DNA of 42,992 bases from Paracoccaceae bacterium. GTDB taxonomy: Bacteria > Pseudomonadota > Alphaproteobacteria > Rhodobacterales > Rhodobacteraceae. This document shows positions 8,542 through 19,303 of the stretch, in pieces (position 1 is the stretch's first letter; each line of letters begins with the position of its first letter). Where the stretch lies: NCBI GenBank assembly GCA_009924775.1, contig RFQY01000003.1:1-42992 (forward strand). The letters run 5' to 3'. Position numbers and translations under genes: made by a program. The notes under the pieces are model-generated. The model was not told the origin of the DNA and searched no databases. It was given only the letters and a program-made list of their open reading frames with translations.

Positions 8542-9312
8542 TCAGGCGGCAGGCGGCGCCACCACAATCTGCGTACCCCACGCGGCGCATTTTGCCGCCA
8601 AGGGGGCGGGCAAGGGGGCTTCGGTGTAAAGCTTTGCCATCTGTGACAGGGGTGCCACCCGCATTGGGGCCTTGCGGCCAATTTTGCTGTGGTCGGCCAC
8701 CAGCACCCTTTGCCGGGCTTGGGCAATGATGGTTTGGCTGACTGCCACTTCGGCGCTGTCAAAATCCAGCATATCGCCGTCTTGGTCCAAGGCCGAGCAG
8801 CCCATCACAGCCAGATCGACCTTGAATTGCTCGATCAGGCGCACGGCTGTGGGGCCAACCAGCCCCCCATCGGCACGGCGCAACCGGCCACCAGCCACCA
8901 CAACCTCGATCTGTGGGTTGGCCGCCAAGATATTGGCAATATTCAGGTTATTTGTCACCACCAACAAATCGCGATGGGTCAACAGGGCGCGGGCGACGGC
9001 CTCGGTCGTGGTGCCAATGGTTAAGAACAACGAGCAGGCATCGGGAATATCGGCCGCGCAGGCACGGCCAATGGCCTCTTTCGCCGCCGCGTGCATCTGC
9101 TGGCGGTCGGCATAGCCAATATTGGCCACGCCCGAGGGCAACACCGCCCCGCCATGCACCCGCTCTAGCTGCCCGGATTCGGCCAAATCGGCCAAGTCAC
9201 GGCGGATGGTTTGCAGCGTGACACCAAAGCGCTGGGCCAAATCCTCGACCACCACTTTGCCTTCGCTGCGGGCAATCGCCAATATTTCTGGGTGGCGAAA
9301 CCGGCTAGACAT
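8542..9312 (-). CDS. DeoR/GlpR-family transcriptional regulator
   Basis: This 256-aa cytoplasmic DNA-binding regulator has the normal length for the family. Its N-terminal winged helix holds the DeoR signature (VEDLAQRFGVTLQTIRRDL followed by LERVHGGAVLP, about residues 20-55). The C-terminal sugar-phosphate-sensor (DeoRC) domain includes TIGTTTEAVARAL and VVAGGRLRRADGGLVGP. Family members usually respond to phosphorylated sugars. ATG 9312 puts the helix-turn-helix at the usual distance; a start 20 codons upstream is possible but unlikely. It is divergent from preT across 167 bases, so it may bind that region, but it is not a known component of pyrimidine degradation. It converges on the rsmB-like gene 8 bases away. 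Confidence 0.9.
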   Translation of the reverse strand: MSSRFRHPEILAIARSEGKVVVEDLAQRFGVTLQTIRRDLADLAESGQLERVHGGAVLPSGVANIGYADRQQMHAAAKEAIGRACAADIPDACSLFLTIGTTTEAVARALLTHRDLLVVTNNLNIANILAANPQIEVVVAGGRLRRADGGLVGPTAVRLIEQFKVDLAVMGCSALDQDGDMLDFDSAEVAVSQTIIAQARQRVLVADHSKIGRKAPMRVAPLSQMAKLYTEAPLPAPLAAKCAAWGTQIVVAPPAA

Positions 9313-9411: not shown

Positions 9412-9427
9412 TTTACCGATTGATAAA
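9412..9427. promoter_or_regulatory. Degenerate RutR-like operator before preT
   Basis: TTTACCGATTGATAAA matches the perfect palindrome at 12859-12874 at 13 of 16 positions. It lies 52 bases before the preT ATG. A weak promoter, TTGCGA (9398) - 17 bases - TGATAA (9421), would place this box over the -10, as expected for repression. Binding by the RutR-like protein is inferred. Confidence 0.5.
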
Positions 9428-9479: not shown

Positions 9480-10808
9480 ATGTCTGCAAATGCCCTGACA
9501 CCGGGTATCGCCGCAGGGCGGTTGCACAGTGACGACTTGCACCAGAACTTTGCCGATCTGCACCCGCCCTTGGGCCAGCACGAGGCGCAGGTTGCCGCTG
9601 ACCGGTGTTATTTCTGCCACGATGCGCCCTGCGTTACCGCCTGCCCCACTGCCATCGATATTCCGCTGTTCATCCGCCAAATCGCCACAGGCACACCCGA
9701 AGCGGCCGCCAAAACGATTTTGTCGCAGAACATTCTGGGCGGCATGTGCGCCCGCGTTTGCCCCACCGAAACGCTGTGCGAACAGGCCTGCGTGCGCGAA
9801 ACCGCCGAGGGCAAGCCGGTGGTTATTGGCCAACTGCAGCGCCATGCAACCGACACATTACAGGCCAAAGCCGGTCATCCCTTCTCCCGGGCGGCCCCGA
9901 CGGGGCGGCGTATTGCCGTTGTCGGGGCCGGTCCGGCGGGGCTGGCCTGTGCGCACCGTTTGGCCATGAAAGGCCACGATGTGGTGGTTTTCGATGCCCG
10001 CCCAAAAGCGGGGGGGCTAAACGAATATGGCATCGCCAGCTATAAATCGACCAATGATTTCGCCCAAGCCGAGGTAAACTGGCTGCTGGGCATTGGCGGC
10101 ATCACCCTGCAGCACGGGCAGGCCTTGGGCCGCGACATCACGCTGGCGGGGCTGCAGGCCGACTATGACGCCGTGTTCTTGGGCATCGGCCTTGGCGGGG
10201 TAAACGCGCTGGCCACTGAGGGCGAAGAAAAAACTGGCGTTCTGGATGCGGTCGATTTCATCGCCGATTTGCGCCAAGCAACCGATCTGGCCGCAGTGCC
10301 CATTGGCCGCGATGTTGTGGTGATTGGCGGCGGCATGACAGCGATTGACGCCGCCGTTCAGGCCAAACTGCTGGGCGCGCTGAATGTCACGCTGGTGTAT
10401 CGCAGGGGCCGCGCGCGTATGAATGCCAGCCCCTTCGAGCAAGATCTGGCCGCCTCTAAGGGGGTGCGCATCATCACCAACGCCATCCCGGTTCGGGTGC
10501 TGGGCAACGGGGCGGTGCGCGAGATCGAATTCGCCTATACCGACGATACGCTAACCCCCACCGGCGACACCTTCCGCTTGGCCGCAGATCAGGTGTTCAA
10601 AGCCATCGGTCAAACGCTGGCAGGCACCGGCCTGCCCGACATCGAAAAAGGCAAGATTGCCACCACCGGCACGGGCCGCACCAGCATGGCTGGCGTTTGG
10701 GCCGGGGGCGATTGCGCCGCAGGTGGCGACGACCTGACAGTAACCGCTGTGGCGCAGGGGCGCGACGCGGCAGAAGACATCCACGCAACCCTGACGGCAG
10801 AGGGCTGA
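9480..10808 (+). CDS. preT: NAD(P)-dependent dihydropyrimidine dehydrogenase subunit PreT
   Basis: This is the electron-input subunit of bacterial dihydropyrimidine dehydrogenase. It takes electrons from NAD(P)H and passes them through FAD and Fe-S clusters to PreA, which reduces uracil or thymine. The 442-aa protein is complete. Cluster cysteines are C43, C46, C51, C55 and C90, C94, C100, C104. The FAD fold starts at about residue 145 (VVGAGPAGLACAHR), and the NAD(P)-binding fold has VVVIGGGMTAIDAAVQ. The C-terminal AGGDCAAGGDDLTVTAV closes the FAD site. It resembles GltD in layout. The preA start follows only three bases after its stop, indicating translational coupling. A RutR-like box lies upstream, and AAAGGA precedes the ATG. 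Confidence 0.95.
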   Translation: MSANALTPGIAAGRLHSDDLHQNFADLHPPLGQHEAQVAADRCYFCHDAPCVTACPTAIDIPLFIRQIATGTPEAAAKTILSQNILGGMCARVCPTETLCEQACVRETAEGKPVVIGQLQRHATDTLQAKAGHPFSRAAPTGRRIAVVGAGPAGLACAHRLAMKGHDVVVFDARPKAGGLNEYGIASYKSTNDFAQAEVNWLLGIGGITLQHGQALGRDITLAGLQADYDAVFLGIGLGGVNALATEGEEKTGVLDAVDFIADLRQATDLAAVPIGRDVVVIGGGMTAIDAAVQAKLLGALNVTLVYRRGRARMNASPFEQDLAASKGVRIITNAIPVRVLGNGAVREIEFAYTDDTLTPTGDTFRLAADQVFKAIGQTLAGTGLPDIEKGKIATTGTGRTSMAGVWAGGDCAAGGDDLTVTAVAQGRDAAEDIHATLTAEG

Positions 10809-10811
10809 GAC

Positions 10812-12116
10812 ATGGCAGACCTGACAACAGATTTCATCGGCATCAAATCACCAAACCCGTTTTGGTTGGCCTCGGCCCCACCGACAGACAAAGAATATAA
10901 CGTGCGCCGCGCCTTTGAGGCCGGCTGGGGCGGCGTGGTGTGGAAAACGCTGGGCGAGGACGGCCCGCCAGTGGTAAATGTCAACGGCCCCCGCTATGGC
11001 GCAATTTGGGGCGCTGATCGGCGGCTGCTGGGGCTGAACAACATCGAGCTGATCACAGACCGCCCGCTGCATGTGAACCTGCAAGAAATCAAATCCGTCA
11101 AACAAGATTATCCCGATCGGGCGATGATTGTCTCGCTGATGGTGCCCTGCGTGGAAGAGGCGTGGAAAGCCATTTTGCCGCTGGTCGAAGAAACCGGCGC
11201 AGATGGGGTCGAGCTGAATTTCGGCTGCCCCCATGGCATGAGCGAACGCGGCATGGGCAGCGCCGTGGGCCAAGTGCCCGAATATATCGAAATGGTCACG
11301 CGTTGGGTAAAGCAAAACACGCGCATGCCCTGTATCGTAAAGCTTACGCCAAACATCACCGATATTCGCAAACCCGCCGCTGCGGCCAAGGCCGGGGGCG
11401 CCGATGCGGTCTCGCTGATCAACACGATCAATTCTATCACCTCGGTCAATCTTGATTTGTTCGCCCCCGAGCCCACGATCGACGGCAAAGGTGCGCATGG
11501 CGGCTATTGCGGGCCAGCGGTAAAACCCATTGCCTTGAACATGGTGGCTGAAATTGCCCGCAGCGCCGATTTACGCGGCCTGCCCATTTCCGGCATCGGT
11601 GGGGTAACCACGTGGCGCGATGCGGCGGAATATTTGGCCATGGGGGCGGGCAACGTTCAAGTGTGCACAGCCGCCATGACCTATGGGTTTAAAATCGTTC
11701 AGGAAATGATTTCGGGCCTGTCAGATTATCTGGATAGCAAAGGCATGCACAGCCCCGCCGATTTGGTCGGCCGCGCGGTGCCAAACACCAGCGACTGGCA
11801 GCATTTGAACCTGAATTACATCAGCAAGGCCAAGATCAACCAAGATCTGTGCATCAGCTGTGGCCGCTGCTACGCCGCCTGCGAAGATACCAGCCACCAA
11901 GCCATTGCCATGTCAGAAAATCGGGTTTTTACCGTGAAAGACGACGAATGCGTGGCCTGCAACCTGTGCATCAATGTCTGCCCGGTGGAAAACTGCATCA
12001 CGATGGAGCAAATGGCCCCCGGCACAACCGACCCGCGCACCGGCAAGATTGTCGAGGCAGACTATGGAAATTGGACAACCCACCCCAACAACCCCAACAG
12101 GGTGGCGGCAGAATAA
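10812..12116 (+). CDS. preA: NAD-dependent dihydropyrimidine dehydrogenase subunit PreA
   Basis: This is the catalytic FMN subunit that reduces uracil or thymine to the 5,6-dihydro form. The 434-aa protein has a dihydroorotate-dehydrogenase-like TIM barrel (residues 1 to about 320), with NFGCPHGMSERGMGSAVGQ and KLTPNITDI around the FMN and substrate site. A C-terminal two-cluster ferredoxin domain follows from about residue 345 (CISCGRCYAACEDTSHQ, then CVACNLCINVCPVENC). Mammalian enzymes have ACGQ, with a catalytic Cys, where this one has AVGQ; as I recall, bacterial members often share the Val. It is coupled to preT. The RutR-like regulator ends 8 bases downstream on the other strand. Confidence 0.95.
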   Translation: MADLTTDFIGIKSPNPFWLASAPPTDKEYNVRRAFEAGWGGVVWKTLGEDGPPVVNVNGPRYGAIWGADRRLLGLNNIELITDRPLHVNLQEIKSVKQDYPDRAMIVSLMVPCVEEAWKAILPLVEETGADGVELNFGCPHGMSERGMGSAVGQVPEYIEMVTRWVKQNTRMPCIVKLTPNITDIRKPAAAAKAGGADAVSLINTINSITSVNLDLFAPEPTIDGKGAHGGYCGPAVKPIALNMVAEIARSADLRGLPISGIGGVTTWRDAAEYLAMGAGNVQVCTAAMTYGFKIVQEMISGLSDYLDSKGMHSPADLVGRAVPNTSDWQHLNLNYISKAKINQDLCISCGRCYAACEDTSHQAIAMSENRVFTVKDDECVACNLCINVCPVENCITMEQMAPGTTDPRTGKIVEADYGNWTTHPNNPNRVAAE

Positions 12117-12826: not shown

Positions 12827-12874
12827 TTGACAGCCGAATGGGCAGCGGCAATCGTGACTTTACCAAATGGTAAA
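12827..12874 (+). promoter_or_regulatory. Promoter with perfect RutR-type operator
   Basis: A consensus -35, TTGACA (12827-12832), lies 17 bases before a weak -10, AATCGT (12850-12855). At the expected start point is TTTACCA-AA-TGGTAAA (12859-12874), a perfect palindrome with 7-bp arms and a 2-bp centre. It matches the E. coli RutR site TTGACCA-NN-TGGTCAA in layout and at 14 of 16 positions, counting the two free centre bases. It lies 29 bases before the amidohydrolase ATG and in the gap shared with rutR, so it could also serve autoregulation. Confidence 0.75.
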
Positions 12875-12903: not shown

Positions 12904-14154
12904 ATGCCAGCACCTGGTGAAAACCTGCGCATCAACGGGGATCGTTTGTGGGACAGTCTGATGGAAATGGCAAAAATCGGGCCAGGGGTGGCCGGCGGCA
13001 ATAACCGCCAAACCCTGACCGATGCCGATGCCGAGGGCCGGACGCTGTTTCAAAAATGGTGCGAAGAGGCCGGTTGCGACATGGGGCTAGACACGATGGG
13101 CAACATGTTTGCCATCCGCCCCGGCACCGACCCCGACGCCCTGCCTGTCTACATGGGCAGCCATCTGGATACACAGCCAACAGGTGGCAAATATGACGGC
13201 GTGTTAGGCGTGTTGGGCGCGTTAGAAGTGGTGCGCAGCCTCAATGACATGGGCATCAAAACCCGCCATCCCATTGCCATTGCCAACTGGACCAACGAAG
13301 AGGGCACACGGTTTGCCCCAGCGATGTTATCCAGCGGGGTCTTTGCCGGCATTCACACCGAAGATTGGGCCAAAGCCCGCCAAGACGCCGATGGCAAATT
13401 ATTTGGCGACGAGCTGCGCCGCATTGGCTGGCAGGGCGAAGAACCCGTTGGCCAGCGCAAAATGCACGCGATGTTCGAGCTGCACATCGAACAGGGCCCC
13501 ATCCTAGAGGCAGAAGGCAAAAATATCGGCGTGGTTACCCACGGCCAAGGCCTGAGCTGGACACAAATCACCATCACCGGCAAAGACAGCCACACCGGAT
13601 CCACCCCGATGCCGCTGCGCAAGAACGCCGGGCTTGGCATGGCGCGCATTTTGGAATTGGTCGACCAAATCGCATGGTCGCATGCCCCCCATGCGGTGGG
13701 CGCGGCGGGCCATATCGATGTCTATCCAAATTCGCGCAACGTGATCCCGGGCAAAGTGGTATTCACCGTCGATTTTCGCAGCCCCGATCTGGCGGTGATC
13801 CAAGATATGGAACACCGCCTGCGCCTTGAGGGCCAGAAAATCTGCGATGAAATGGGGCTGGACGTCGCGTTTGAAAAAGTAGGCGGATTTGATCCCGTGG
13901 CCTTTGACGCGGGCTGTGTCGCAGCGGTGCGGCGCGCAGCAGAAAGCCTGGGCTACGCGCATATGAACATCATTTCGGGGGCTGGCCACGATGCCTGTTG
14001 GATCAACCAAGTGGCGCCAACAGCGATGATCATGTGCCCCTGCGTTGATGGGCTGTCGCATAACGAGGCAGAGGAAATTTCCAAAGACTGGGCAACCGCA
14101 GGCACCGATGTGCTGTTGCATGCGGTTCTGGAAACGGCGGGTGTGGTGGCCTAA
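12904..14154 (+). CDS. M20-family Zn amidohydrolase, probable N-carbamoyl-beta-alanine amidohydrolase
   Basis: This 416-aa cytoplasmic metallohydrolase belongs to the N-carbamoyl-amino-acid hydrolase / beta-ureidopropionase / allantoate amidohydrolase group of M20. Metal and substrate motifs are in order: MGSHLDTQPTGGKYDGVLGV, NEEGTRFAPAMLSSGVFAG, HIEQGPILE, GKDSHTGSTPM in the lid-domain junction, and SGAGHDACW near the C-terminus with LSHNEAE. Because it sits between preTA and hydA, the likely substrate is N-carbamoyl-beta-alanine (or the beta-aminoisobutyrate form), giving the beta-amino acid, CO2 and ammonium. Sequence alone does not exclude allantoate or an L-carbamoyl amino acid. It starts with a strong AAGGGGGG ribosome site and is directly behind the RutR-type operator. 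Confidence 0.88.
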   Translation: MPAPGENLRINGDRLWDSLMEMAKIGPGVAGGNNRQTLTDADAEGRTLFQKWCEEAGCDMGLDTMGNMFAIRPGTDPDALPVYMGSHLDTQPTGGKYDGVLGVLGALEVVRSLNDMGIKTRHPIAIANWTNEEGTRFAPAMLSSGVFAGIHTEDWAKARQDADGKLFGDELRRIGWQGEEPVGQRKMHAMFELHIEQGPILEAEGKNIGVVTHGQGLSWTQITITGKDSHTGSTPMPLRKNAGLGMARILELVDQIAWSHAPHAVGAAGHIDVYPNSRNVIPGKVVFTVDFRSPDLAVIQDMEHRLRLEGQKICDEMGLDVAFEKVGGFDPVAFDAGCVAAVRRAAESLGYAHMNIISGAGHDACWINQVAPTAMIMCPCVDGLSHNEAEEISKDWATAGTDVLLHAVLETAGVVA

Positions 14155-14188: not shown

Positions 14189-15652
14189 ATGGCAACGAAA
14201 GTCATCAAGGGCGGCATGGTATGCACCGCCGACCGCACATGGAAAGCCGATGTTCTGATCGAGGGCGAGACGATCAAACAGATCGGCGAAAACCTAGTTG
14301 GCGACGAATATATCGACGCCGAAGGCGCCTATGTCATCCCCGGCGGGATCGATCCGCACACGCATCTGGAAATGCCCTTCATGGGCACAACCGCGGCTGA
14401 AACCTTTGAAACCGGCACATGGGCTGCGGCCTGTGGCGGCACCACGATGCTGGTGGATTTCTGCTTGCCCGGCGCCGATGGCAGTATCAAAAACGCCATT
14501 AACGAATGGCACCGCAAAAGCGCACCACAGATTTGCGCCGACATCGGCTATCACATGGCCATCACCGGCTGGAATGAAACCATCTTCACCGAGATGAAAG
14601 ACGCCGTCGATATGGGCGTGAATTCCTTCAAGCATTTCATGGCTTACAAAGGTGCGCTGATGATCGAGGACGACGAAATGTTCGCCTCGTTCAAGCGCTG
14701 TAAAGAACTGGGCGCCTTGCCCATGGTGCATGCGGAAAACGGCGATCTGGTGGCCGAGATGCAGCAAAAATACTTTGACCAAGGCATCACCGGCCCCGAG
14801 GGGCACGCCTATTCGCGCCCCCCCGAATTCGAGGGCGAGGCGGCAAACCGCGCGATTTGCATCGCCGATACCGCCGGCGTGCCGCTGTATATTGTGCATG
14901 TTTCTTGCGAACAGGCCCACGAGGCCATCCGCCGGGCACGGCAAAAGGGCATGCGCGTCTATGGCGAACCGCTGATCCAGTTTTTGACCTTGGATGAAAG
15001 CGAATATTTCAACAAAGATTGGGACCATGCCGCACGGCGCGTTATGTCGCCGCCCTTCCGCTCGAAAGACCACCAAGACAGTTTGTGGGCGGGTTTGCAG
15101 GCCGGCTCGTTGCAGGTGGTGGCCACCGACCATGCGGCCTTTAACACCGAACAAAAACGCGCCGGCAGGCATGATTTCCGCATCATCCCGAACGGATCCA
15201 ATGGGTTGGAAGAACGCTTGGCCGTGCTGTGGACGCATGGGGTGGAAACCGGGCGGTTAACCCCAAATGAATTCGTGGCGGCCACATCGACCAATGTTGC
15301 GAAAATTCTAAACATCTACCCCAAGAAAGGCGCCATCGTCGAAGGGGCCGACGCCGATATCGTGGTATGGGACCCAAAGATCAGCAAAACCATTTCGGCG
15401 GCCAACCACCACTCTATCCTCGATTACAATGTGTTCGAGGGTTTTGAAGTTACCGCGCAGGCCCGCTATACCCTATCGCGCGGCGAGGTGATTTGGGCTT
15501 GGGGTCAAAACAGCCAGCCAAACCCCGGCCGTGGCCGGTTTGTGCCGCGCCCCGCCTTCCCCAGCGCAAACGTAGCCCTGTCAAAATGGAAAGAGCTAAA
15601 CGCCCCCAAAATGATTCAGCGCGATCCGCTGAACATTCCCGCCGGCATTTAA
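14189..15652 (+). CDS. hydA: Dihydropyrimidinase (D-hydantoinase)
   Basis: This enzyme opens the ring of dihydrouracil or dihydrothymine to give the N-carbamoyl beta-amino acid. The 487-aa protein is an amidohydrolase-superfamily member of normal length. The metal ligands show as DPHTHLEMPF (about residue 57), the carboxylated lysine in FKHFMAYKGALM (about 150), HAENGD (about 183), VHVSCEQ (about 238) and ATDHAAFN (about 312). AAGGAGG at 14177-14183 sets the start at ATG 14189, 34 bases after the amidohydrolase stop; a longer frame from 14045 only overlaps the previous gene. It completes the three-step reductive pathway with PreTA and the M20 enzyme. Confidence 0.95.
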   Translation: MATKVIKGGMVCTADRTWKADVLIEGETIKQIGENLVGDEYIDAEGAYVIPGGIDPHTHLEMPFMGTTAAETFETGTWAAACGGTTMLVDFCLPGADGSIKNAINEWHRKSAPQICADIGYHMAITGWNETIFTEMKDAVDMGVNSFKHFMAYKGALMIEDDEMFASFKRCKELGALPMVHAENGDLVAEMQQKYFDQGITGPEGHAYSRPPEFEGEAANRAICIADTAGVPLYIVHVSCEQAHEAIRRARQKGMRVYGEPLIQFLTLDESEYFNKDWDHAARRVMSPPFRSKDHQDSLWAGLQAGSLQVVATDHAAFNTEQKRAGRHDFRIIPNGSNGLEERLAVLWTHGVETGRLTPNEFVAATSTNVAKILNIYPKKGAIVEGADADIVVWDPKISKTISAANHHSILDYNVFEGFEVTAQARYTLSRGEVIWAWGQNSQPNPGRGRFVPRPAFPSANVALSKWKELNAPKMIQRDPLNIPAGI

Positions 15653-15686: not shown

Positions 15687-15755
15687 GAGCGGTACAATAA
15701 TAACAGAGCGCGGCGCCCGAGCCGCGACATCACAGTAACGCGGGGAGTAACCGGT

Positions 15756-16541
15756 TTGACGACCGATATCGCGATCAGCGCCAAGGGCCTGAACCTGACC
15801 TTTCAAACAAATGATGGGCCGGTGCATGCCCTAAAGGATGTCAATCTTGATATCTGCAAGGGCGATTTTGTCAGCTTCATCGGCCCGTCGGGCTGTGGCA
15901 AAACCACCTTCCTGCGTTGCATGGCAGATCTTGAACATCCCACCGGTGGCAGCATCACGGTCAATGGTGTTTCGGCTGCAAACGCACGCGCCGCGCGCGC
16001 CTATGGCTATGTGTTTCAGGCCGCGGGGCTGTATCCATGGCGCACCATCGGGCGCAATGTGTCACTGCCGTTGGAAATTATGGGCTATGACAAAACCGAT
16101 ATTGCCCAGCGGGTGCAGCGGGTGCTGGAGCTGGTGGAATTGTCTGGCTTTGAAAAGAAATTCCCTTGGCAGCTTTCGGGGGGCATGCAACAGCGCGCCA
16201 GCATCGCCCGGGCATTGGCCTTTGACGCCGATATCTTGCTGATGGACGAACCCTTTGGCGCGCTGGATGAAATCGTGCGCGACCACCTGAACCAACAATT
16301 GCTGCAGCTGTGGGCGCGCACAAACAAGACGATTGCCTTTGTCACCCATTCGATCCCCGAGGCGGTGTATCTGTCGACCCGCATCGTGGTGATGAGCCCG
16401 CGCCCCGGCAGAATTACCGATATCATCGAAAGCCCGCTACCCCGCGAACGCCCCTTAGACATTCGCGACACCCCTGAATTTTTGGAAATCGCCCATCGCG
16501 TTCGCGAGGGCCTGCGCGCGGGTCATGCTTATGACGATTAA
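15756..16541 (+). CDS. ABC transporter ATP-binding protein of the putative pyrimidine importer
   Basis: This cytoplasmic ATPase powers the importer formed with the next three genes. It is of the NitT/TauT (SsuB/ThiZ-like) type. Seen in order are Walker A GPSGCGKTT, the Q-loop VFQAAGLYPWRT, the signature LSGGMQQR, Walker B ILLMDEP and the His switch FVTHS. The proposed start is TTG 15756, preceded by GGGGAG at 8 bases, giving 261 aa. An in-frame ATG at 15669 would lie inside the stem-loop and add 29 residues unlike the family. The gene is 103 bases after hydA and may share its transcript. Confidence 0.88.
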   Translation: MTTDIAISAKGLNLTFQTNDGPVHALKDVNLDICKGDFVSFIGPSGCGKTTFLRCMADLEHPTGGSITVNGVSAANARAARAYGYVFQAAGLYPWRTIGRNVSLPLEIMGYDKTDIAQRVQRVLELVELSGFEKKFPWQLSGGMQQRASIARALAFDADILLMDEPFGALDEIVRDHLNQQLLQLWARTNKTIAFVTHSIPEAVYLSTRIVVMSPRPGRITDIIESPLPRERPLDIRDTPEFLEIAHRVREGLRAGHAYDD

Positions 16542-16570
16542 GCGCAACACCTGCCATAGGGGGGGCAAGC

Positions 16571-17431
16571 ATGCGTAACCTGCTGCCCGTTTTAACCGTT
16601 GTCGCAGCGCTGCTGGCCCTGTGGTATGCCGCCGCCGTCTGGCTGAATGCCGATTGGGCCTATGACCGCGCCCAGCGCGCTGGAACCACGCTTAATTTTA
16701 GCGCATTGGTGGCCGACACATGGGCGCAAGACAAACCCAAATTGCCCGCCCCCCACCAAGTGGCCACCGAGATATGGAACACCACGGTCGAGAAAAAGAT
16801 CACCTCGAAACGCAGCCTTATTTATCATAGCTGGGTCACCATGTCGGCCACGCTGCTGGGCTTTATCTTGGGCACTGCGCTGGGTATTGGGCTGGCCATC
16901 GGCATTGTCTACAACCGCGTCATGGACATGAGCGTGATGCCATGGGTGATTGCCAGCCAAACCATTCCCATTCTGGCCATCGCGCCAATGATTATCGTGG
17001 TGCTGAACGCCGTGGGCATTTCCGGCCTGCTGCCAAAGGCCATTATCAGCATGTATCTTAGCTTTTTCCCGGTGGTTGTGGGCATGGTAAAGGGCTTGCG
17101 CAGCCCTGATCAGATGCAGCTAGACCAAATGCGCACATGGAATGCCAGCGCGGCGCAAACCTTTTGGCGCCTGCGCCTGCCCTCGTCTATGCCCTATCTG
17201 TTCACCTCGATGAAAATTGCCATGGCCGCCAGCTTGGTGGGGGCCATTGTGGGCGAACTGCCCACCGGGGCTGTGGCCGGGCTTGGGGCGCGGCTGCTGG
17301 CGGGCAGCTATTATGGCCAAACCATCCAGATTTGGAGCGCGCTGATCATGGCCGCCGCTTTGGCCGCAGCGCTGGTGGCACTTATCGGGCTGGCGCAGCG
17401 CATCACCCTGAAACGCATGGGAATGGCATAA
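16571..17431 (+). CDS. ABC transporter permease, first subunit
   Basis: This 286-aa inner-membrane permease of the NitT/TauT type has an N-terminal membrane helix (LLPVLTVVAALLALWYAAAV), then a soluble stretch (about 25-85). The core helices follow, with the coupling-loop region around DQMRTWNASAAQTFWRLRLP (about residue 188). Its stop codon overlaps the start of the next gene by one base (TAATG), so the two permeases are made together as a heterodimer. The substrate is inferred from the neighbouring pyrimidine genes. Confidence 0.9.
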   Translation: MRNLLPVLTVVAALLALWYAAAVWLNADWAYDRAQRAGTTLNFSALVADTWAQDKPKLPAPHQVATEIWNTTVEKKITSKRSLIYHSWVTMSATLLGFILGTALGIGLAIGIVYNRVMDMSVMPWVIASQTIPILAIAPMIIVVLNAVGISGLLPKAIISMYLSFFPVVVGMVKGLRSPDQMQLDQMRTWNASAAQTFWRLRLPSSMPYLFTSMKIAMAASLVGAIVGELPTGAVAGLGARLLAGSYYGQTIQIWSALIMAAALAAALVALIGLAQRITLKRMGMA

Positions 17432-18276
17432 TGGCTTGGGTTCTTGCAGCTTTGGCCGCTTGGGCCTTGGGGATCTGGGCCAATACCCGTTTGGCGCGGC
17501 TGCCACGGTCGCGGGGCACGGGGCTGGCCGTTCCGGTGATATTTGGCCTGACAATCGTGGTGATGTGGGAATGCCTTGTGCGGGGGCTCAACGTGCCCTC
17601 GGTTATTTTGCCCCCACCCAGCGCCATTGCCGCGCGGTTTGCAGTATCTACCCATATCTTGTGGGAAGACTTTGTGCAAACCGTGATGAAAGGGGCGCTA
17701 TCGGGCTATGTCATGGGCTGTGGCGGGGCATTCCTGCTGGCCATTGCCATAGATCGGTTTCCATTTTTGCAACGCGGCTTGCTGCCCGTGGGCAATTTCG
17801 TGGCCGCCCTGCCGATTATCGGCATGGCACCGATCTTGGTGATGTGGTTCGGCTTTGACTGGCAATCAAAGGCGGCCGTCGTGGTTGTGATGGTGTTTTT
17901 CCCGATGCTGGTAAACACCGTGCAAGGCCTGCAAGACACCACCACCATGCAACGCGATTTGATGCACACCTACGCCGCAGGCTATTGGGCCACGCTGCTG
18001 TATTTGCGTTTGCCTGCCGCGATGCCGTTTATCTTCAATGGCTTGAAAATCACCTCAACCTTGGCCTTGATCGGCGCGATTGTCGCCGAATTTTTCGGCT
18101 CGCCGATCCGGGGTATGGGGTTTCGTATTTCCACCAGCGTGGGGCAATTGGCGCTTGATCTTGTTTGGGCAGAAATTGTCGTGGCCGCACTGGCAGGGTC
18201 GGTTTTTTATGGCGGGGTCGCACTGCTGGAAAAAGCAGTCACCTTTTGGCACCCGTCACAGCGAGGCAGGGCATGA
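17431..18276 (+). CDS. ABC transporter permease, second subunit
   Basis: This 281-aa permease of the same family starts at ATG 17431, overlapping the previous stop. Seen are an N-terminal helix (VLAALAAWALGIWA), a second helix (VPVIFGLTIVVMWECLV), and a core with VMGCGGAFLLAIAIDRF and the EAA-like loop HTYAAGYWATLLYLRLPAAMP reduced to its key pattern. The sequence differs enough from the first subunit to indicate two dedicated halves. A 37-base gap with AAGGAG leads to the binding-protein gene. Confidence 0.9.
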   Translation: MAWVLAALAAWALGIWANTRLARLPRSRGTGLAVPVIFGLTIVVMWECLVRGLNVPSVILPPPSAIAARFAVSTHILWEDFVQTVMKGALSGYVMGCGGAFLLAIAIDRFPFLQRGLLPVGNFVAALPIIGMAPILVMWFGFDWQSKAAVVVVMVFFPMLVNTVQGLQDTTTMQRDLMHTYAAGYWATLLYLRLPAAMPFIFNGLKITSTLALIGAIVAEFFGSPIRGMGFRISTSVGQLALDLVWAEIVVAALAGSVFYGGVALLEKAVTFWHPSQRGRA

Positions 18277-18313
18277 ATAACACCATAACCAAAGCTAACA
18301 AGGAGAGTATGAA

Positions 18314-19303
18314 ATGAAACTGTTTGCAAAAGCGCTGGGCAGTTCGGCGCTTGCCCTATGGGCTGGCATGGCTGCCGCGGCTGATGATGTGACCCTACAA
18401 TTGAAATGGGTCACCCAAGCCCAATTCGCAGGCTACTATGTGGCGCTGGAAAAAGGCTTTTACGACGAAGAAGATCTAAACGTCACAATCAAACCGGGCG
18501 GCCCTGATATTGCCCCCACGCAGGTGATTGCCGGCGGTGGCGCAGATGTAACCGTAGAATGGATGCCCGCAGCGCTGGCCGCGCGCGAAAAGGGCCTGCC
18601 TTTGGTAAACATCGCCCAGCCCTTCAAATCGTCGGGGATGATGCTGACCTGCCGCAAAGATTCCGGCGTGGCCAGCACCGCAGATTTCAAAGGCAAAACA
18701 CTGGGTGTTTGGTTCTTTGGCAACGAATTTCCCTTCCTGTCATGGATGAGCCAGCTGGGCCTGTCCACCGAAGGTGGGGCCGATGGTGTGACCGTGCTTA
18801 AGCAAGGTTTCAACGTAGATCCGCTGCTGCAAAAACAGGCTGCCTGCGTTTCGACCATGACCTATAATGAATATTGGCAGGTGATCGATGCAGGGCTGAC
18901 ACCCGATGACCTGATCGTCTTCAAATACGAAGATCAGGGCGTCGCCACCTTGGAAGACGGGCTTTATGTGCTGGAAGAAAAACTGGCCGATCCTGCCTTC
19001 GAGGACAAGATGGTGCGCTTTGTGCGGGCCTCGATGAAGGGCTGGAAATACGCCGAGGCCAACCCAAACGAGGCCGCAGATATCGTGCTGGAAAACGATG
19101 CAACCGGCGCCCAAACCGAGGCGCATCAGCGGCGTATGATGTCTGAAGTGGCCAAGTTGACCGCAGGCTCAAACGGCGCGTTGGATCCGGCAGATTACGA
19201 GCGCACAGTCGCCTCGCTGATGTCGGGCGGCTCGGACCCCGTTATCACAATGGCCCCACAGGGCGCCTGGACCCACGCCATCACCGACAAAGCGCTGAAA
19301 TAA
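18314..19303 (+). CDS. NMT1/THI5-like periplasmic substrate-binding protein
   Basis: This 329-aa protein has a Sec signal peptide (MKLFAKALGSSALALWAGMA, cut near AAA-DDV). The mature part opens with LQLKWVTQAQFAGYYVALE, typical of the NMT1/THI5-like family that includes binders of thiamine-pyrimidine breakdown products. It continues with a type-2 periplasmic fold (GGADVTVEWMPAALAARE; GVWFFGNEFPFL). It would deliver the ligand to the two permeases. Its place at the end of a cluster for pyrimidine reduction suggests uracil, thymine or a related pyrimidine as ligand; this is inference. A strong terminator follows 24 bases after the stop, and the order ATPase-permease-permease-binding protein makes a complete importer. 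Confidence 0.9.
   Translation: MKLFAKALGSSALALWAGMAAAADDVTLQLKWVTQAQFAGYYVALEKGFYDEEDLNVTIKPGGPDIAPTQVIAGGGADVTVEWMPAALAAREKGLPLVNIAQPFKSSGMMLTCRKDSGVASTADFKGKTLGVWFFGNEFPFLSWMSQLGLSTEGGADGVTVLKQGFNVDPLLQKQAACVSTMTYNEYWQVIDAGLTPDDLIVFKYEDQGVATLEDGLYVLEEKLADPAFEDKMVRFVRASMKGWKYAEANPNEAADIVLENDATGAQTEAHQRRMMSEVAKLTAGSNGALDPADYERTVASLMSGGSDPVITMAPQGAWTHAITDKALK

Follow-up and report, generated by a model that had tools for sequence, protein, structure and literature searches.

A predicted RutR-type operator in a reductive pyrimidine gene cluster and its conservation in Rhodobacteraceae

The window, i.e., the whole stretch of 42,992 nucleotides that was analyzed (contig RFQY01000003.1 of assembly GCA_009924775.1, Paracoccaceae bacterium), contains a compact reductive pyrimidine cluster in which preT and preA on the forward strand are followed by a TetR-family gene on the reverse strand and then, again on the forward strand, by an M20 amidase gene, hydA, and an ABC transporter (Table 1). 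For the preT-like protein, the NCBIfam cut-off was reached by none among the matches listed. The M20 amidase also scored 692 bits (cut-off 452) against NF006769, a model that bears the name allantoate amidohydrolase, and is treated here as a candidate beta-ureidopropionase based upon its gene neighbourhood. The ABC transporter is probably encoded in the same operon as the amidase and hydA; its permeases were named by position alone, and a homologue of its ATPase (1e-20) was present at 70 of 80 relative loci (best 80 of 244).

Table 1. Coordinates of the genes and predicted regulatory elements, numbered from the first letter of the window
Feature	Positions	Strand	Remarks
DeoR/GlpR-like regulator gene	8542-9312		divergent from preT
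Predicted operator O2	9412-9427	+	TTTACCGATTGATAAA; asymmetric right half; upstream of preT
TTGATA, right half of O2, probable -35 hexamer of the preT promoter	9420-9425	+	invariant in 64/64
preT-like, dihydropyrimidine dehydrogenase NAD-binding subunit	9480-10808	+	Fer4_20, Pyr_redox_2
preA, dihydropyrimidine dehydrogenase catalytic subunit	10812-12116	+	NF006183 720 bits, cut-off 335
rutR-like TetR-family repressor gene, 207 aa	12124-12747	-	domains, PDB match, conserved pocket and DNA-contact residues
Putative -35 hexamer TTGACA of the M20-hydA promoter	12827-12832	+	
Putative -10 element AATCGT	12850-12855	+	17 bases after TTGACA
Predicted operator O1	12859-12874	+	TTTACCA-AA-TGGTAAA; kept upstream of the M20 gene in relatives
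M20 hydantoinase/carbamoylase-family amidase	12904-14154	+	TIGR01879 383 bits, cut-off 204
hydA, dihydropyrimidinase	14189-15652	+	TIGR02033 585 bits, cut-off 393
ABC transporter	15729-19303	+	ATPase 15729-16541; NMT1/THI5-like binding protein 18314-19303

The product of the TetR-family gene carries a TetR_N domain (55 bits) and a YcdC-like C-terminal region (PF08362, 157 bits), both over the cut-off. It matched the PDB entry for RutR, 3loc, with an E value of 1.7e-53, and was 50.6% identical over 176 amino acids to the segment of E. coli RutR that was used. A first-pass annotation, made from the letters of the window, had placed a RutR-like gene next to the palindrome described below, and these matches bear that out. 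At 223.7 bits the protein remained below the curated cut-off (368) of the NCBIfam RutR equivalog TIGR03613 and is therefore described as RutR-like rather than as a formal RutR. The same cut-off was reached by none of the seven family genomes that carry rutA; among the control genomes, matches came from E. coli and Caulobacter vibrioides, and one of these two exceeded it. According to the accessible part of PMC10891134, W77, Y97, W167, Q171, and Q179 of E. coli RutR contact uracil and K52 is a proposed DNA contact. All six positions were identical in the window protein and in 80 of 80 relatives (best 80 of 244). At 1e-30, a RutR match was obtained in 245 of 295 sampled family genomes.

The palindrome designated O1 lies in the gap between the M20 amidase-hydA-ABC operon and the rutR-like gene that diverges from it. 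It had been called perfect, and its 7-base halves are exact reverse complements, but the AA spacer is not self-complementary, which leaves 14 of 16 positions palindromic. The RutR-type layout claimed for it (half-site-N2-half-site) was upheld, with 16-bp sites of the form TTKACCA-N2-TGGTMAA near the predicted targets; the E. coli RutR box consensus is presumably TTGACCA-NN-TGGTCAA. In the accessible part of PMC10891134, the E. coli site is given as palindromic and about 16 bp long.

The exact sequence TTTACCANNTGGTAAA had one match in the assembly (3.27 Mb, 485 contigs), namely O1. When the window was scanned with TTKACCANNTGGTMAA at two mismatches or fewer, two matches were found against 0.22 expected (two or more in 1 of 100 shuffles), and each immediately precedes one of the two pathway operons. 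At three mismatches or fewer the strict pattern likewise gave two window matches, which against 0.89 expected is not significant. The case for O1 rests on its exactness, position, and conservation, and the three-mismatch count alone means little. Across the assembly, six sites with at most one mismatch were recovered, including O1, against two for the backwards control pattern. A wider regulon was considered and rejected, as the five further one-mismatch sites each overlap a predicted ORF. One of them (L123) lies at the very start of its ORF, and the true start could fall downstream of it.

Conservation was first assessed in the best 80 of 244 loci with relatives of the TetR protein (59-95% identical), a sample that favours near relatives, by scoring the best site in the 300 bases upstream of each gene against TTKACCANNTGGTMAA. 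Eight loci had no M20 match, and in the remaining 72 a site with two mismatches or fewer preceded the M20 gene in 70 (0 mismatches in 57, 1 in 10, 2 in 3, and 5 in the other 2). Upstream of preT such a site was found in 64 of 64 usable regions, 47 with one mismatch and 17 with two. At the same threshold, the control regions upstream of preA (0/64) and hydA (0/71) contained none, and mononucleotide shuffles gave 0.2 of 72 for M20 and 0.15 of 64 for preT. The first-pass annotation had tied the palindrome to the reductive pathway and had suggested a motif search in relatives; both came out in its favour, with the palindrome kept upstream of the orthologous amidase and preT genes. The operator at preT (O2) was absent from that annotation.

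The span previously drawn around O1 began at position 12827, the leading T of a TTGACA hexamer. This hexamer was recovered in 44 of the 59 loci that could be anchored, 39 times at -32 and 5 times at -33 relative to the operator; another 13 loci were unanchorable. In T-type loci each of the columns -11 to -4 (GCAATCGT) was conserved in at least 45 of 50. Judged by this conservation, transcription would be expected to start at about 12862, inside O1. The proposed overlap of palindrome and start point is thus supported by the conserved promoter columns, but a promoter scan in the style of E. coli found no promoter at O1.

The second operator ends 52 bases before preT and has a different form. An asymmetric sequence, TT[T/G]ACC[A/G]NTTGATAAA, was present in all 64 preT regions of the first sample (best 80 of 244 loci), and a second peak of conservation, containing TG and a -10-like element, lies 11-22 bases downstream of TTGATA. 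The right half of O2 therefore appears to serve twice, with TTGATA probably also acting as the -35 hexamer of the preT promoter, and such double use would account for the departure of this half from the palindrome. A scan against the E. coli consensus found no promoter at the preT operator. These negative scans count against both promoter assignments, but only weakly if the promoters are off consensus. Counting the window and the second sample described below, TTGAT[A/C]AA was found in 83 of 86 preT promoters (82 of 85 without a duplicated locus). TTGATA as the -35 hexamer is a strong tendency and not a rule, for three promoters depart from it: L176 has a perfect palindrome, L166 has its deviant base in the other half, and L164 is changed otherwise.

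In the first-sample loci (best 80 of 244), the third base of the half-sites divided the operators into 31 TT, 19 mixed GT, 19 GG, and 11 unclassified. An explanation in which the TTTACCA variant noted in the first-pass annotation marks a changed DNA specificity of the regulator is unlikely, even though site class does cluster on the RutR tree. On that tree (121 rows, 91 classified), separating T-containing from GG sites took 10 changes, and none of 500 shuffles was as low, yet the class changed repeatedly, at least three times as judged by well-supported branches. All three site classes (TT, GT, and GG) share one recognition helix, SKPN-x-[LI]-YYF, and when RutR residues 1-79 were compared across them, no residue of the helix followed the class. 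Single natural sites mix both kinds of half (the 19 GT among 69 classified), and eight GG genomes have one RutR-family match alone. With base 3 varying while the recognition helix stays constant, TTTACCA is better read as a tolerated variant than as a specificity switch, position 3 probably being accepted as either T or G.

A second, more distant sample of 40 loci was taken as every second row among the weaker matches listed that had not already been sampled; one of them (L165) proved to duplicate L091 from the first sample. Of the 40 loci, 36 contained an amidase match, and rutR and the amidase gene were often separated by another gene. A site with two mismatches or fewer was present in the 300 bases before M20 in 25 of 36 loci (24 of 35 without the duplicate) and lacking from that region in 11, and a site with at most one mismatch lay between rutR and M20 in 22 of 36 (21 of 35). 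By both criteria, five of the 36 (L167, L168, L172, L186, L191) had no site. Conservation at the amidase gene was thus weaker in the second sample than in the first. At preT, sites with two mismatches or fewer were found in 21 of 21 valid regions (20 of 20 without the duplicate).

These data also bear on the view that the palindrome is conserved merely as part of a promoter or of a well-kept neighbourhood, and does not serve a repressor. Across the 80 loci of the first sample (best 80 of 244) the cluster as a whole is well kept, and the operator adjoins a conserved promoter. The spacer varies, however, whereas the two halves do not lose their sequence, the layout persists through the T/G changes, and the regions upstream of preA and hydA lack the site. 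Four second-sample loci have no amidase match; in their genomes preT lies on another contig or more than 400 kb from rutR, and its upstream site was kept in all four, which argues for a trans-acting regulator over mere synteny. The two genes are also separated in a fifth genome (that of L062), whose preT site carries its mismatch at a different place (L227, TTTACTATATGGTCAA). Conservation without a repressor is accordingly very unlikely.

It is likewise very unlikely that O1, O2, or both belong to some other regulator. The DeoR/GlpR-like gene, although divergent from preT in the window, has a homologue beside preT in 1 of 60 loci with room (the sister genome) as against the site in 64 of 64. 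A second RutR-family gene is present near rutR in 14 of 80 loci (best 80 of 244), but in its own assembly the window RutR at 1e-30 finds itself alone, with two weak matches at 1e-6 to 1e-4. The paralogue was also considered as owner of the TTGACCA sites, all 14 of its loci being G-type, and was rejected, as the eight GG genomes with a single RutR-family match indicate that it is not needed for G-type sites.

The paralogue occurs, for example, at L037:5277-5915, and also at L022, L025, L028, L047, L051, L067, L068, L069, L071, L072, L076, L089, and L090. Its helix reads LPKANLHYYF where it was read and differs from that of RutR. The gene is beside or near rutR, with the amidase gene on its far side in all but L067, where the contig ends first. 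G-type sites precede the paralogue or the amidase gene, and in some loci two of them, judged by eye, stand in tandem.

Outside the family, a RutR match was found in 42 of 289 genomes of a class sample. Among the best 26 loci from other families, 18 contained a homologue of preT, preA, the amidase, or hydA (1e-6, about 1.5 kb flanks; the match in L201 is weak) and 8 contained none, while a site with two mismatches or fewer lay somewhere in the DNA of 19, position 3 usually being G, and was absent from 7.

The window regulator resembles E. coli RutR (rutA-G, carAB) as a member of the TetR family in its YcdC-like C-terminal region, its 50.6% identity, the six contact residues, and the half-site-N2-half-site layout of its predicted site. 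Unlike E. coli RutR, it apparently controls the reductive and not the oxidative pathway, its site has T and not G at position 3, and the protein is below the NCBIfam RutR cut-off. Linkage or co-occurrence with rutA, as would be looked for in a regulator of the rut operon, was not seen here, with no RutA found at 1e-50 in the 3.27 Mb assembly. At the same threshold RutA was found in 7 of 290 family genomes, so the rut pathway is probably rare in the family. Seven rutA regions (L141-L147) from five of these seven genomes contained no RutR match and no site with at most one mismatch, and two of them hold a two-mismatch site. A link to the rut operon within the family was rejected on this basis, and regulation of rut in those genomes appears unlike that in E. 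coli. At six loci with RutR relatives of 59-65% identity (L054, L060, L062, L070, L080, L083; Cognatishimia, Marivivens, and an uncultured relative), the reductive genes were not found beside RutR, and in five of the six genomes PreT was not found at 1e-100, which suggests that RutR has some other role there.

Precedents exist for a RutR-like protein in such a role. In Pseudomonas putida, PydR is reported to be a RutR-like protein that represses the reductive pathway (Hidese et al. 2012, J. Biochem., as cited in the accessible part of PMC7332683). A PydR-type repressor would act on the dehydrogenase gene of that pathway, with which the predicted site at preT is consistent. RegPrecise RutR regulons span 68 genomes in 13 groups of Proteobacteria with taxon-specific substitutions in the motif (PMC5343134, accessible part). 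In view of these two precedents, the present finding is well supported but ordinary in kind. The accessible part of PMC4344238 mentions RutR once, for E. coli. Among the literature matches listed, no description of this site in Rhodobacteraceae was found, subscription papers and supplements lying outside the search. The result would give a role and a small regulon to a RutR-like gene present in most sampled genomes of the family, and in Rhodobacteraceae the label RutR is better taken to indicate a probable regulator for the reductive use of pyrimidines.

Taken with its conservation and position, O1 is very probably the operator of the divergent RutR-like repressor, which would hold the reductive pyrimidine pathway off until uracil or thymine is available. 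At low uracil, a RutR dimer would occupy O1 over the start of the M20 amidase-hydA-ABC operon and would block initiation there, and RutR would also occupy O2 over the -35 region of preT-preA, such that the pathway would be off. Binding of uracil (or thymine) would release RutR and turn both operons on, after which pyrimidines would be imported and degraded via dihydrouracil and N-carbamoyl-beta-alanine to beta-alanine and ammonia. We infer binding, repression, the inducer, and the start points from the sequences and their conservation, together with the homology and pocket residues of the regulator.

The two operators may, tentatively, differ by design, O1 being symmetric over the start and O2 being near-invariant and asymmetric with TTGATAAA doubling as the -35 hexamer, so that two mechanisms and different affinities would be in play; this reading is possible, with the balance tipping slightly against it. 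If true, one repressor would act both by blocking a start site and by occluding a -35 hexamer, and transport and the later steps would be induced at a different uracil level from the first reducing step. If the dual use is true, changing TTGATAAA to TTGGTAAA in the preT site would tighten binding and weaken the promoter, and the conserved asymmetric preT operator would illustrate in simple form how a promoter element can constrain an operator.

At two of the relative loci (L082, L084), an omega-aminotransferase-like gene, named by eye, lies between rutR and the M20 gene, and would fit the use of beta-alanine made by the pathway.
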